The notes under the pieces were generated by a model that worked only from the letters and a program-made list of their open reading frames with translations, was not told where the DNA came from and did not search any database. Position numbers and translations under genes: made by a program. DNA of 64,000 nucleotides from Dysgonomonas sp. PF1-14 (lineage in GTDB: Bacteria > Bacteroidota > Bacteroidia > Bacteroidales > Dysgonomonadaceae), in assembly GCF_029892965.1 (NCBI RefSeq), contig NZ_JARXWN010000021.1:1-64000 (forward strand), given 5' to 3'. This document shows positions 44,029 through 50,275 of this stretch, one piece after another. Within the stretch, counting starts at the first letter, position 1. Each line of letters starts with the position of its first letter.

Positions 44029-44103
44029 AAAGTTTTGCGAAGTAACGGTCACAAAGAGCCTTAGTTACGAAGTAACTCTCTGCTACGCCATTCGCAAAAC
44101 TTT
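44029..44103 (-). terminator. Long hairpin after the TROVE gene
   Basis: AAAGTTTTGCGAA (minus, 44091-44103) pairs perfectly over 13 bp with TTCGCAAAACTTT (44029-44041), enclosing a smaller AGTTACTTCGTAACT hairpin; a T-run follows. It can act as a terminator, but its size suggests a repeat element. Confidence 0.5.
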
Positions 44104-44111
44104 CATAATTA

Positions 44112-45626
44112 TTACAGTTCTATTTTTTCAATTTCACTCAGTGCATTGCCACCGTTGTCGATAGCGGCTATGATGTCGAATATTTTATCCGACCAGCCTG
44201 CTATCAGATATACATCTTTTCGGGTAGCATCCAGCGGAGTGTTTCCGTGTCCTGCAAGGTCGAACAGGTATAGCTTACTGTTTGGCGATATTTTTTTGTA
44301 ATCGTTCCATACATCTGCTATTTTCTTATCGTTCTTGCTGTTCCATAGCTGCATATCGGTAAACATCATCACCTTGTCTACCTGCTCTTTGCGTTTTAGC
44401 AAATCTTTTATTACAAGGTAGCCGTTAGTAGAATATCCTACTTCACCGCTTCGTCTATAGAAAGTAGTTACATTCGACAATATGTTTTTGGTAGGTACAT
44501 TTATTACTTTCCATATATCACCAAACATACCGGTTATAGCATTGGCACAACGCGATTTCAGCAACATGGCAAGCATCAGCCCGATGTCGTATGCCATTAT
44601 CGAGCTTCTTGGCGATACTGTTATGTGCATAGATCCCGATACGTCGCAGGCTATAGCTACACTGGTATCTTCGTCGAAGCCTTTTATATTTTCGGCGGAT
44701 ATGCTTGCAGCCTGTTCAAGGGCTTCCATCACACGCCCGGCATAGCCCGATTTTACTTTCGATATTTCACGATAGGCAGCAAGGAAACGGAATGGCAACT
44801 GTTTTGATCGGCGTACGGCATCGGCTGACGACAAGGTATCGCATACTTTTATTATATGTTCTTTCGAGACTTTTGCCTCCAATATGTTGCGTAAGTTACG
44901 CATCAATGCCATATAGCCAACTTTTTCGCTGTCTATCAGTTCTTCCCATTTAGTACGGAAAGCCAGTTCTTTTTCAGCATCGGTCTGGTATTTGTTTTGT
45001 CCCAAAGCCGAAAGTTCTGTCTCCCATGTGTATGGAGTTTCCAACTCATTGTTTACTATCTTGTTAAACAATGCTTGTTGAGCTTCGTCCTTCGCTTTTG
45101 GGTGGACAAGGAACAGGGCATCGCGCAGCTTTATCTCCGTATCGCGGTTGTACTTGGCGAACTGATACTCATCGAACCGATTGAAAGCATCCTGCAAGCC
45201 GGCTTGTAGCTGTTTCGACAGGCGATTTAGTTTCTTCGTATCCTTTCTGCTGTTTGCCAACTGGTAGTAAGCCAGCAATTCGGTGATCTCATCGGCACGT
45301 TGTACGACTTTCGATACCATTTTACTTACAGTGGAATCTCCTCTATGCACTTTTGCCAATTCTACAGCCAATACCAATGGTATGGAACGCATATTCATCT
45401 TCTGGCGGGTATATACTGCCAACTGTGCTACAAATACAGGATCGCAGTGTACGATCAGGTTACGCAGAGTTTCTATTCTTGCCTCTGCGCTTTCGTAAAA
45501 CTTGTCACTCAACGAAGAGGTAACCGCAGCAGTATATAGTTGCCACTCAGGTGACATACGGTAAGCTTCAGCTCCCTCATAGTTTACTACTTTGTTTTTT
45601 CCTTTGTTTAAGAAATTAAATTTCAT
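44112..45626 (-). CDS. rsr: Ro60/Rsr TROVE-domain RNA-binding protein
   Basis: 504 residues. N-terminal ~330 residues form the HEAT-like TROVE ring (MSPEWQLYTAAVTSSLSD, RNLIVHCDPVFVAQLAVYTRQKMNMRSIPLVLAVELA), and the rest is a von Willebrand A domain with an intact MIDAS motif DVSGS (Asp328-Ser332). Bacterial Ro proteins bind Y RNAs and misfolded RNAs and can guide exonucleases to them. Its promoter shares an operator-like element with rtcB. Confidence 0.92.
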   Translation of the reverse strand: MKFNFLNKGKNKVVNYEGAEAYRMSPEWQLYTAAVTSSLSDKFYESAEARIETLRNLIVHCDPVFVAQLAVYTRQKMNMRSIPLVLAVELAKVHRGDSTVSKMVSKVVQRADEITELLAYYQLANSRKDTKKLNRLSKQLQAGLQDAFNRFDEYQFAKYNRDTEIKLRDALFLVHPKAKDEAQQALFNKIVNNELETPYTWETELSALGQNKYQTDAEKELAFRTKWEELIDSEKVGYMALMRNLRNILEAKVSKEHIIKVCDTLSSADAVRRSKQLPFRFLAAYREISKVKSGYAGRVMEALEQAASISAENIKGFDEDTSVAIACDVSGSMHITVSPRSSIMAYDIGLMLAMLLKSRCANAITGMFGDIWKVINVPTKNILSNVTTFYRRSGEVGYSTNGYLVIKDLLKRKEQVDKVMMFTDMQLWNSKNDKKIADVWNDYKKISPNSKLYLFDLAGHGNTPLDATRKDVYLIAGWSDKIFDIIAAIDNGGNALSEIEKIEL

Positions 45627-45817: not shown

Positions 45818-46258
45818 TCATTGTTTTGCGGTCATATTTTTACTATAGTCTACTATTTCCTTGTTCATTGCCAGATAATTTCCATTATTGTCGTACTGAT
45901 AAGTGGTTATTTCTGATTTCTTCTCCCAATTCTCTTTTTTTCTGCTCCATTTAGTATATACGATGGATTCGAGCCGTCCACCGTCGAAAGTATAATCGTA
46001 TTTATGTATTGCTCTCCAACCGGATATACCATTCCATTTGTAAACAGTGACATTTTTCTTATTATTATCAGTATCATACTCATAAACATATTTAAGCATA
46101 GGGTCGTATCCTTCATACTGAACTAAGTATTCTTTTACAAGACCAGTTTCTGTAATCTCTGTATTAACATATTTTTTTCGTTTTGGCGTTTTTGCAGATA
46201 CTGTTGTTATTGTTGCCGATAGGAATAATGCTGTTACAAATAATATTATAGTTTTCAT
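45818..46258 (-). CDS. Small secreted protein, DUF3836-like
   Basis: 146 residues with a signal peptide (MKTIILFVTALFLSATITTV, cleavage near VSA-K). The mature part consists of Tyr/Trp/Asp-rich strands (YEYDTDNNKKNVTVYKW, YDYTFDGGRLESIVYTKW, TYQYDNNGNYLAMNKE), the pattern of the small DUF3836 proteins of Bacteroidota. Function unknown. Lies between TROVE and the candidate Y-like RNA, on the same strand as both. Confidence 0.6.
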   Translation of the reverse strand: MKTIILFVTALFLSATITTVSAKTPKRKKYVNTEITETGLVKEYLVQYEGYDPMLKYVYEYDTDNNKKNVTVYKWNGISGWRAIHKYDYTFDGGRLESIVYTKWSRKKENWEKKSEITTYQYDNNGNYLAMNKEIVDYSKNMTAKQ

Positions 46259-46509
46259 AATTGTAAATTTTAATAAGATGGTAAATAAAAATTTCAGTAA
46301 TTATTCTAAGCGCTTTCTGTGAATATGACGAGGCCAGTTTGATAAAGGTTACAGTTTTTGCGAAATATTTTCTCTTTATTCGTAAGATGCTTATTATCAA
46401 GTGTGTTTTTTCTTGATTGCTTTTGAGAAAGTTTAGATAGAGCGTAAATCTTTCACCCGCCTATATGATAAGTAGGAGTTATAGGTTGCCCGGAAGGGAA
46501 GGATGGAGA

Positions 46510-46731
46510 GAAAAACAAGTAAGGCTACAGGCGAAAAGAGACTTTGCCGTACGGCTGCGAACGTTCTTACCCTTTGCGGGGCAGTGAACCGGCATTCGAC
46601 ATCTCAGAGAGACTTGCGCATAGTGCTTTGCCCTGCCGGATTTCAACCCGGCTTCGCGGAATCGGTTGCCCGAGTCTAAGCTACCTTAGGTTCGTTATCG
46701 AAGTAACTCTTATCTACGGCACTTACTTGCA
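46510..46731 (-). ncRNA. Candidate structured RNA, possibly Ro-associated (Y-like)
   Basis: About 220 nt with no credible ORF, G+C clearly above the flanks. On the minus strand a TACCTTTG box (46736-46743) is followed at about 6 nt by CAAGTAAG-TGCCGTA. CAAGTAAG (46722-46729) pairs with CTTACTTG (46516-46523) at the 3' end, which is followed by TTTTT; TGCCGTA (46715-46721) pairs with TACGGCA (46545-46551). Inside are three perfect hairpins: CTAAG-GTAG-CTTAG (46676-46689), TCGG-GCAA-CCGA with a GNRA loop (46662-46673), and GCCGG...CCGGC (46635-46652) with a T-loop-like TTGAAAT; GGGCA/TGCCC closes a fourth domain. Location ~0.9 kb upstream of TROVE and a closed terminal stem fit a bacterial Y RNA, but no conserved Y sequence was verified. 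Confidence 0.5.
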
Positions 46732-46735
46732 GGGA

Positions 46736-46743
46736 CAAAGGTA
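46736..46743 (-). promoter_or_regulatory. -7 box of the candidate RNA
   Basis: TACCTTTG on the minus strand. A divergent plus-strand TATATTTG (46786-46793) lies 42 nt away and can serve the NYN gene. Confidence 0.55.
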
Positions 46744-46823
46744 ATCTTTTATGCAATAAATTACCATATTTTTTGCAAAAGAGCGTATATTTGATATCCG
46801 ATGAAATGAAATATAAAAAACAT

Positions 46824-47579
46824 ATGACAGAAAATAAAGATCTGATGCTGGCAGTACTTATCGATGCCGATAATGTACCCTATGCGAATATAAAAGGAAT
46901 GCTGGATGAAATAGCAAAGTTCGGGAATCCTACTATCAAGCGGATATATGGTGACTGGACGAAGCCGACCGTATCGGGGTGGAAGCAGCCCCTGTTGGAA
47001 CATGCCATTACTCCCGTACAGCAATACAGCTACACTACAGGAAAAAATGCGACCGATTCGGCGATGATCATAGATGCTATGGATATATTGCACAGTGATA
47101 AGGTTGATGGTTTTTGCCTTGTCTCCAGCGACAGCGATTTTACGCGTCTGGCAGTCAGACTGCGCGAATCGGGAATGTTCGTGATCGGTTTGGGAGAGAA
47201 GAAGACGCCCAGTCCGTTTATCGTTGCCTGCGATAAGTTTATCTATATAGAGATATTGGATAACTCGGATACCCAGTCCGATACGGCGGCAAAAGATTCT
47301 CCTGCACCAAAGAAAGCCAATATAGAGCCTGTAAATAAAAAAATATTACAACTACTGAAATCTACAATCCGCGATGTGGCGGATGACGATGGCTGGGCAT
47401 ATCTGGGCGAGGTGGGCAACTTGGTTATCAAGAAGCGTCCCGACTTCGACCCGCGTAACTATGGCTTCCCGAAATTGACGCCATTGATCAAATCGCAAAA
47501 GAAAGTATTTGAAATAGACGAGCGCGATGTGGATAAGAAAGGACATACGAAGCTGATCTATGTGAGGGTGAAGGATTAG
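46824..47579 (+). CDS. NYN-domain nuclease with LOTUS/OST-HTH domain
   Basis: 251 residues from MTENKDLM; the ATG at 46806 is also possible, while a TTG further upstream is not. NYN (PIN-like) domain: VLIDADNVPY (first Asp pair), YGDWTKPT, KNATDSAMIIDAMDILH and CLVSSDSDFTRL (acidic residues of the metal site). After a short linker, ~175-251 is an OST-HTH/LOTUS RNA-binding domain (WAYLGEVGNLVIKKRPDFDPRNYG..). LabA/DUF88-like. RNA cleavage is a reasonable inference. Divergent from the candidate RNA. Confidence 0.85.
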   Translation: MTENKDLMLAVLIDADNVPYANIKGMLDEIAKFGNPTIKRIYGDWTKPTVSGWKQPLLEHAITPVQQYSYTTGKNATDSAMIIDAMDILHSDKVDGFCLVSSDSDFTRLAVRLRESGMFVIGLGEKKTPSPFIVACDKFIYIEILDNSDTQSDTAAKDSPAPKKANIEPVNKKILQLLKSTIRDVADDDGWAYLGEVGNLVIKKRPDFDPRNYGFPKLTPLIKSQKKVFEIDERDVDKKGHTKLIYVRVKD

Positions 47580-48964: not shown

Positions 48965-50275
48965 CTACAAAGCCTTAATATTCATGATCGGTTTTACCGA
49001 ATCTATTATTGTCGCAGTATCCTTTATCGCTTCTATAATCACATTCTTGTCTTTATAAGCCATTGGCGATTCGTCTAAGGTCTTCTGGCAGACCGAAGTG
49101 GAGTAGATACCCTCCATCTTTTTGGTGAACTCGGCCATATCGAGTGTTTCCAGTGCCTTGTTACGGGCTAAAACACGTCCTGCACCATGTGGAGCAGAGC
49201 AGTTCCAGTCGGCATTACTTTTACCTTCGCAGATAAGGATTCCATCCTGCATATTGAAAGGTATCACCATCTTTTCGCCTGTGTACGATCTGATAGCGCC
49301 TTTTCTTATAATCCAGTCGGCGGTATCGATAAAGTTGTGCATAGAGTAAACCGAATCTATCGCTTCAAAATCTTCTCCCAGATCTTTGAATATCGCTTTC
49401 GACATTGCTTTATGGTTAAACTGCGCATAAGTCTGTGCAATCACCATATCTAATAGATAGTTGTACATATCGTCACCTTCCAATGGATATTCTTTCTTGT
49501 CGGTTTTATACTTTTTGCTCAGGTCTTTCAGCTTCTGAGGGATGTCGCTTGTTGGCTGTGTATGCTTGGTTATATACTCAAACTCATCGTAATATGCTGT
49601 AGGCAGGTTATTTGTCGCTTCCATTTTCTTTGCATGGTAGTTGCATATTTTCAGCCCGAAGTTTCGCGATCCGGAGTGAATAGTCAGATAATGCGATCCG
49701 TCGTTTGCCGATTCGCCGACTTCGATGAAGTGGTTTCCCCCACCCAATGTTCCCACCGAGAAGTAGAACGAATTTTCATTAGTCCCGATTCTTTTACACA
49801 GTTGAGCAATATATTCTTTATCCACTATTACAGGCGATTTGGCTTCTCCGAAACGCTTTGCCCATTCCTGCTGAAAGGCGGCTATGTTTGTATTCACAGC
49901 TTCCAGATACGGAGCTATCCACCAGTTGTCAAAGTTTTTTTCATTACGGATGTTCATACCCATAGGCACAGAACGTCTGATGGCATGGTCTAATGTTGGC
50001 AGGCGATCGGCGTCGATTCGTTTATTAAGTTTATGTGCAGTCACCGAGCAGCCTATATCTACACCTATATAGTTCGGATTGATCATCTTGGTCATCGGCA
50101 TGGTGAATCCTATCACAATACCTTTACCTACATGCGTATCGGGCATAATTCGTACCTGTACGCCTTCGGATATTTCTTCGTTCAGTATATTCTTTACCAT
50201 CCCGATGGCTTCGGCTTCCACATTGTCGATAAATATTTTACAGTCCTTGTTGTATTTTCCTTCTAAATTGATCAT
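48965..50275 (-). CDS. rtcB: RtcB RNA ligase
   Basis: 436 residues. Metal site: GVDIGCSVTAHK (Cys76), NHFIEVG, HSGSRNFG; guanylylation His363 in NCSAPHGAGRVLARNKA. Joins RNA 2',3'-cyclic phosphate or 3'-phosphate to 5'-OH ends with GTP. No archease or RtcA gene is adjacent. Regulation is probably shared with the TROVE gene through the TGCGCAG sites. Confidence 0.94.
   Translation of the reverse strand: MINLEGKYNKDCKIFIDNVEAEAIGMVKNILNEEISEGVQVRIMPDTHVGKGIVIGFTMPMTKMINPNYIGVDIGCSVTAHKLNKRIDADRLPTLDHAIRRSVPMGMNIRNEKNFDNWWIAPYLEAVNTNIAAFQQEWAKRFGEAKSPVIVDKEYIAQLCKRIGTNENSFYFSVGTLGGGNHFIEVGESANDGSHYLTIHSGSRNFGLKICNYHAKKMEATNNLPTAYYDEFEYITKHTQPTSDIPQKLKDLSKKYKTDKKEYPLEGDDMYNYLLDMVIAQTYAQFNHKAMSKAIFKDLGEDFEAIDSVYSMHNFIDTADWIIRKGAIRSYTGEKMVIPFNMQDGILICEGKSNADWNCSAPHGAGRVLARNKALETLDMAEFTKKMEGIYSTSVCQKTLDESPMAYKDKNVIIEAIKDTATIIDSVKPIMNIKAL

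Follow-up and report, generated by a model that had tools for sequence, protein, structure and literature searches.

A candidate 219-nt Y-type RNA with a conserved non-tRNA insert near a Ro60-like gene of Dysgonomonas sp. PF1-14

The TROVE locus and the candidate RNA

The window, the whole stretch of 64,000 nt that was analyzed from Dysgonomonas sp. PF1-14 (contig NZ_JARXWN010000021.1, positions 1 to 64,000), carries genes for a TROVE (Ro60-like) protein and for an RtcB RNA ligase and, between them, a candidate structured RNA of about 219 nt (Table 1). In the preliminary description this RNA was located upstream of the TROVE gene, which is correct: the TROVE gene lies downstream of it at a distance of 885 nt, with one DUF3836 gene intervening. 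Its neighbors also include an ankyrin protein gene, in addition to RtcB and the NYN-LOTUS gene, and TROVE, the RNA and RtcB do not make up a single unbroken cluster in the window.

A minimal RNA of the same type starts 10 nt past the TROVE stop codon, where it could double as a terminator. Minimal RNAs following TROVE were observed in L041, L043, L071 and L075 as well and are not evident in L044, which gives five of the six loci examined.

In regard to the architecture of the 219-nt RNA, all elements that had been named previously, that is, a -7 box, a closing stem, a T5 tract and three perfect internal hairpins, were found again on the minus strand, the RNA itself spanning 46729-46511 and the -7 box lying just upstream. 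The pattern TAnnTTTG is what we take to be the Bacteroidetes -7 box. GNRA-type loops close two hairpins (GTAG and GCAA), and the hairpin at 46652-46635, regarded as T-arm-like, has an 8-nt loop and belongs to an insert devoid of a T-loop motif. The conserved motif on the 5′ side of the stem, TGCCGTAGATAAGAGTTACTTCG, is common to Y RNAs of eight TROVE-positive genomes and can be written in a short form as TGCCGTAG...TACTTCG. The 5′ and 3′ strands of this stem enclose an insert, or module, which is itself closed by a helix with one pair altered on both sides in the orthologs described below.

Table 1. Features of the TROVE locus and of related loci (positions refer to the window unless a locus is named).
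Feature	Position	Strand	Remarks
Minimal Y-type RNA	44030-44102	minus	perfect 12-bp closing stem and T run; 5′ motif with one mismatch
TROVE (Ro60-like, Rsr) protein	44112-45626	minus	Pfam TROVE E 1.6e-32, and vWA_Ro60; predicted partner of the 219-nt RNA
DUF3836 gene	45818-46258	minus	between the TROVE gene and the 219-nt RNA
Candidate 219-nt Y RNA	46729-46511	minus	~219 nt, single-copy
-7 promoter element TACCTTTG	46743-46736	minus	putative, read from the sequence; TATCTTTG at a like place in both orthologs
Closing stem, 8 bp	46729-46722 with 46523-46516	minus	CAAGTAAG with CTTACTTG
Ro-type stem, 5′ strand	46729-46699	minus	CAAGTAAG followed by conserved motif TGCCGTAGATAAGAGTTACTTCG (46721-46699)
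Ro-type stem, 3′ strand	46543-46516	minus	AGTCTCTTTTCGCCTGTAGCCTTACTTG; shared 3′ motif and covarying closing helix
T5 tract	46515-46511	minus	directly after the closing stem; likely terminator, from the sequence
Insert (module)	46698-46544	minus	156 nt by the cut of the script; orthologs L040 16949-17100, L041 4790-4942
Insert-closing helix, 5′ strand	46694-46684	minus	CGAAC (46694-46690) pairs with GTTCG (~46562-46558)
Hairpin CTAAG-GTAG-CTTAG	46689-46676	minus	GNRA-type loop; invariant in three orthologs
Hairpin TCGG-GCAA-CCGA	46673-46662	minus	GNRA-type loop; invariant in three orthologs
Hairpin GCCGG-(GTTGAAAT)-CCGGC	46652-46635	minus	8-nt loop on 5-bp stem; one compensated pair (C-G to T-A) in orthologs
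Hairpin GTCTC-TCT-GAGAT	46613-46601	minus	paired bases invariant
Hairpin GTTC-AC-TGCCC..GGGTA-A-GAAC	46589-46563	minus	loop variable
Hairpin GCCGTACGGC	46555-46546	minus	GCCGCAAGGC in both orthologs
23S-like stretch 1	46698-46680	minus	ATAACG..CCTAAGGTAGC; E. coli 23S from 1916 onward; post hoc
23S-like stretch 2	46656-46641	minus	14/16 with 23S of the same genome (L045 from 1671); post hoc
NYN-LOTUS protein gene	from 46803	plus	neighbor of the 219-nt RNA
RtcB RNA ligase	48965-50275	minus	Pfam RtcB E 4.1e-59; adjoins Y RNAs in relatives
Large ResIII-type helicase	L041 5225-7981; L040 17152-19848	minus	directly upstream of the RNA
WYL-domain regulator	L043 9083-10093; L044 11379-12386; L071 10011-11033; L072 8480-9520		adjoins TROVE

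Orthologs and the shared end stem

Orthologs of the whole RNA were found in two genomes, G018 (85%) and G013 (88%), both listed in the genus of the window genome. Over the three genomes the mean column identity amounts to 93%, and the end stem, the -7 box and the hairpins are kept where the flanks differ; in each ortholog the -7 box is retained along with the closing stem and both GNRA hairpins, and a single one of them also has the T5 tract. A covariance model built on the insert gave strong matches in 3 of 29 chosen genomes (the window genome, G013 and G018), all of them TROVE-positive, and weak matches in G006 (E 0.07) and G000 (E 0.077) were taken as chance. The same model, run with stricter filters over evenly drawn samples of 395 genomes from the phylum and 393 from the order, recovered only the window genome. 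Likewise, an exact 22-mer of the RNA was found on two contigs of a genome-contig collection, consistent with G013 and G018. An origin from a phage or mobile element was rejected: phages searched for the RNA and viral contigs searched with two exact patterns yielded none, and a lone 32-base match among plasmids (E 0.02) lies inside a transporter gene and was taken as chance. The possibility of a multi-copy repeat was also considered: a BLAST search of the genome returned one full copy of the RNA, while its end stem is multi-copy, in the manner of a gene family.

The folding energy of the RNA is -69.2 kcal/mol, against a mean of -67.2 for shuffled sequences (z -0.45; 70 of 200 shuffles equaled or surpassed it). 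Folding energy, considered for both strands, was rejected as evidence for a structured RNA. What sets the RNA apart from chance is comparison, chiefly the end-stem sequence common to many RNAs, and not its energy. In the consensus fold of the three sequences, 3 of 66 pairs are changed on both sides, a number reached by 40 of 500 shuffles. Of the three hairpins named in the preliminary description, two are invariant; one compensated pair and two unpaired cells occur in the third. Changes of the insert among the orthologs are found in loops, or are compensated at three pairs, and the consensus fold pairs far worse when slid along the alignment. The insert is known from three sequences that are 93% alike, so that its fold is backed by little covariation; we regard the fold as plausible rather than proven.

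The end sequences of the RNA are not confined to the TROVE locus. A search of the genome revealed that they recur together on another contig, C1, where five shorter RNAs carry the end-stem strands, with the 5′ motif at zero mismatches. The RNAs of this array share a frame whose 5′ part reads approximately TGYCGTAGAnAAGrGTTACTTCG and whose 3′ part reads approximately CTYTTTTCGCCTGTTRCCTTG. Their inserts differ, and in some of them a T-arm is combined with an acceptor helix and a D-arm, the order being permuted. Three of these siblings scored 42.2, 41.6 and 35.7 bits against the Rfam family YrlA (E 2e-7 to 1.5e-5 in the 2.3 kb searched; the gathering cut-off is 69), aligning over the full length of YrlA or over its tRNA-like part, and the frame is thus that of bacterial Y RNAs. 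The array region (L039 6047-8270, corresponding to 33.0-35.3 kb of C1) holds about six Y RNAs with different modules. In one kind of module the tRNA parts are unpermuted (GGGG ... T-arm ... CCCC), and the same kind recurs in L040, L041, L043, L044, L072 and L106.

The closing helix was examined over eight pairs in 34 RNAs from eight genomes. Standard pairs occupy 262 of the 272 cells, whereas 3′ strands dealt anew among the RNAs pair in 204.5 cells on average and in 228 at most (2000 shuffles). At the pair adjoining the bulge, 15 RNAs have C-G and another 15 have T-A. As the 3′ strands were located by a motif covering part of the closing helix, the three outermost pairs provide the cleanest test. 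The set was drawn from 39 frame pairs, of which six were dropped, namely four minimal RNAs (window 44095, L041 10001, L043 6933, L071 7855), the near-duplicate L039 7720, and L073 10269, while one L039 RNA (D1) was added. For L043 5443 and L072 11321 the script had assigned a 3′ strand too far away, and both were paired again by hand with the nearer one. Two L106 RNAs, together with further members bearing the same type of module in L040, L043 and L044, remain outside the set.

Furthermore, the end motif follows the distribution of TROVE. Of 25 genomes of the genus, five have a TROVE gene, and these are the five in which a prior search had found strong end-motif matches; a TROVE gene was also found in five of 393 genomes sampled from the order, the window genome being among them. 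With at most one mismatch, the 5′ motif occurs in eight of the nine TROVE-positive genomes, and the 20 genus members scored as TROVE-negative, some of them incomplete, contain no such match. The positive matches are so partly by construction, as the pattern had been derived from genomes already known to contain matches; the absence from TROVE-negative genomes and the co-occurrence seen later do not depend on it. Matches with two mismatches, one in each of five TROVE-negative genomes, are at the level of the reversed control, and the TROVE-positive genome G116 has only a match of this kind. RtcB is found beside Y RNAs in L043, L044, L072 and L106, and L072 has at least four Y RNAs in a row with TROVE and RtcB. 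The WYL regulator adjoining TROVE in four loci possibly stands in place of RtcR. In G013, a nucleotidyltransferase of the RlaP family (PF10127, RNA repair) was observed beside the TROVE and Y RNA genes (L041 12847-13905).

The insert and its possible origins

An internal tRNA-like part had been proposed for the RNA, and it was not borne out. Regular expressions for T-loop and D-arm motifs matched neither the insert nor its two orthologs, ARAGORN reported no tRNA or tmRNA, and the insert has no Rfam match. In the set of 34 RNAs, by comparison, a T-loop motif is present in 27 inserts and a D-arm motif in 15. The three orthologous inserts, with 153-156 nt, are also the longest of the set (median 79). 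Another Y RNA without a T-loop motif was observed at L041 14889-15028 (minus strand), and one stretch of its insert seems to resemble a tRNA D-arm. Concerning other known RNAs, no Rfam family was found at the gathering cut-offs in the whole window, there was no match to YrlA in the window up to E 10, and the orthologs gave no match up to E 5; the RNA matches no other known RNA in an Rfam scan that included YrlA. Four scattered matches of snoRNA type (E<=10; 46314-46431, 46496-46549 and two near 46782-46862) lie far below the cut-offs and were discarded.

One alternative, possible but unlikely in our judgment, is that the insert represents a stand-alone structured RNA related to neither rRNA nor tRNA, which would bind a protein encoded nearby, for example an SF2 helicase. 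In G013 and G018, the RNA closely follows the end of a ResIII-type (SF2) helicase gene, which was found in just these 2 of the 29 genomes. However, the window genome has the RNA and no helicase of this type at E up to 1e-10, so the helicase is not an obligate partner. The neighboring NYN-LOTUS gene occurs in 14 of the 29 genomes, most of which are without the 219-nt RNA.

Alternatively, the insert could mimic 23S rRNA, joining portions of helix 69 (from its 3′ half) and of its flanks to a piece from about 270 nt upstream, in swapped order. Such a module would be the rRNA counterpart of the permuted-tRNA modules and would bring enzymes acting on rRNA, or the handling of damaged rRNA, to the Ro ring, or act as a decoy. 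Stretch 1 agrees with 23S rRNA at 17 of 19 positions in the window genome, 18 of 19 in G018 and 17 of 19 in G013, and stretch 2 in the G013 version (CGAAGTCGGGTTGAAAA) at 16 of 17 positions with the 23S rRNA of the window genome at L045 1671. When the two best ungapped matches to 23S rRNA are summed, the consensus scores 30.0, a value that none of 15,000 shuffles reached; for the individual sequences, the respective sums were reached by 27 (window genome), 1 (G018) and 0 (G013) of 15,000. Among 5,902 null pieces (4,500 shuffles, 1,102 genomic, 277 from 16S and 23 from RNase P), seven attain the sum of the window insert and none that of G018 or G013. Comparable scores were not obtained with antisense or reversed 23S, with 16S or with RNase P. 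A gap-tolerant alignment prefers a permuted over a linear 23S segment in all three sequences, and the swapped order of the two stretches is reminiscent of the permuted tRNA modules. Deinococcus Rsr is described as acting in 23S maturation (PMC4726728).

On the other hand, the comparison with 23S rRNA was chosen post hoc, after the insert had been read, and several results speak against it. In a permissive gapped alignment of the whole RNA with 23S rRNA, 31, 13 and 106 of 300 shuffles did as well for the three sequences; the alignment is non-significant for two of them, and its best place for the window genome and G013 is elsewhere in 23S. The sequence following stretch 1 is mostly at the shuffle level. 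The covariance model of the insert reaches at best 6.4 bits on the 23S rRNA of the same genome, at another place, and 2.4 bits at 1924-1950, while 23S is not among the matches of a BLAST search of this genome up to E 10. Moreover, stretch 2 is absent from E. coli 23S, and both stretches fold as local hairpins within the insert, a fold that presumably differs from the one in 23S. A full-length collinear homolog of 23S rRNA is unsupported by the gapped alignment and by the sequence after stretch 1. We consider a 23S mimic unlikely and regard it as a lead.

By eye, a further short pairing can be seen in all three orthologs where the stem motif meets the start of the insert (46712-46699 and beyond): after the conserved GTTACTTCG, GTTA can pair with TAAC (TAAT in G013). 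To our understanding, this hairpin resembles the loop region of helix 69. Helix 69 is a site of rRNA modification, and ribosome-targeting nucleases act nearby. It is conceivable, if rather improbable, that Y RNAs carry interchangeable decoys, tRNA mimics in the array and a swapped-order 23S mimic of the 3′ half of helix 69 here. If this were true, a system of Ro, Y RNA and RtcB would handle damaged rRNA as well as tRNA, with each Y RNA setting the substrate; a module that echoes 23S would link Ro RNPs with RtcB repair and with ribosome quality control in a single design.

Finally, a non-functional, decayed member of the Y array that acquired unrelated sequence would accord with the restriction of the RNA to three genomes and with its ordinary folding energy, but is very improbable given the 93% mean column identity, the end stem, -7 box and hairpins kept in three genomes despite differing flanks, and the confinement of changes in the insert to loops or to three compensated pairs.

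Proposed role and comparison with other Ro systems

Bacterial Y RNAs have mainly been described as one stem combined with a tRNA mimic. The claim of a Y-like RNA at this locus survives in one part and is dropped in another: the end stem, shared and covarying with siblings that carry tRNA mimics, and the co-occurrence with TROVE identify a Ro-scaffold (Y-type) RNA, while its interior is not tRNA-like. What the comparisons establish is the shared covarying end stem, the co-occurrence with TROVE and the distinct conserved insert. We find it highly probable that the 219-nt RNA is a Y-type RNA which combines an end stem for the adjacent Ro60-like ring with a separate non-tRNA module, presumably directed at another partner or class of substrate than those of its siblings. 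Its transcription, its binding by the TROVE protein, the tethering and gating of the ring, and the change of partner are what we infer from this arrangement.

According to the mechanism we propose, the paired ends of the RNA would form a stem, bound to the TROVE/Rsr ring on its outer face. This stem would tether the ring, and the 156-nt module would gate it and recruit an effector, as in known bacterial Y RNAs, where the effector of the best-studied example is the exoribonuclease PNPase. With a different fold in place of the permuted-tRNA module, the RNP should have another partner or another class of substrate than the tRNA-mimic siblings. A single genome in which a common Y RNA stem bears differing modules, one of them large and not tRNA-like, makes the idea of swappable adaptors, with the Y RNA deciding which partner or substrate the Ro ring takes on, directly testable.

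Several known systems invite comparison. According to PMC8394870 and PMC4726728, bacterial Y RNAs bind Rsr by their lower stem and hold PNPase at the opposite end, and the assembly of Rsr, Y RNA and PNPase works as an RNA degradation machine whose entry is gated by the Y RNA. The RNA studied here would resemble the Y RNA of Deinococcus radiodurans in its RYPER complex (Ro, Y RNA and PNPase), where the stem holds the Ro ring and the opposite end holds the nuclease and gates the entry of RNA (PMC4726728); this likeness is one of model and not of sequence comparison. In Salmonella, rsr, Y RNAs and rtcBA belong to one repair operon (PMC7790460). TROVE, Y RNAs and RtcB are likewise found together here, but in contrast to the rsr-yrlBA-rtcBA operon, the protein beside TROVE is a WYL protein (L043, L044, L071, L072) and not RtcR. 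Vertebrate Y RNAs (RF00019) also have a Ro60-binding lower stem and a variable loop domain, and the bacterial RNAs are reported not to be their homologs (PMC4726728); the 219-nt RNA differs in having no Rfam match.

The closest comparison concerns YrlA (RF02553) of Salmonella and Mycobacterium. In PMC8394870, YrlA is given a length of 90-150 nt and a tRNA-like module that serves as a substrate of tRNA modification enzymes. The two RNAs are alike in the stem of 5′ and 3′ ends and in having a gene of their own near an rsr-type gene and RtcB, whereas the 219-nt RNA is longer, has neither T-loop nor D-arm, and gives no Rfam score. Judged by sequence, it is not YrlA as defined by Rfam, but its Ro-type stem is common to it and its YrlA-like siblings.
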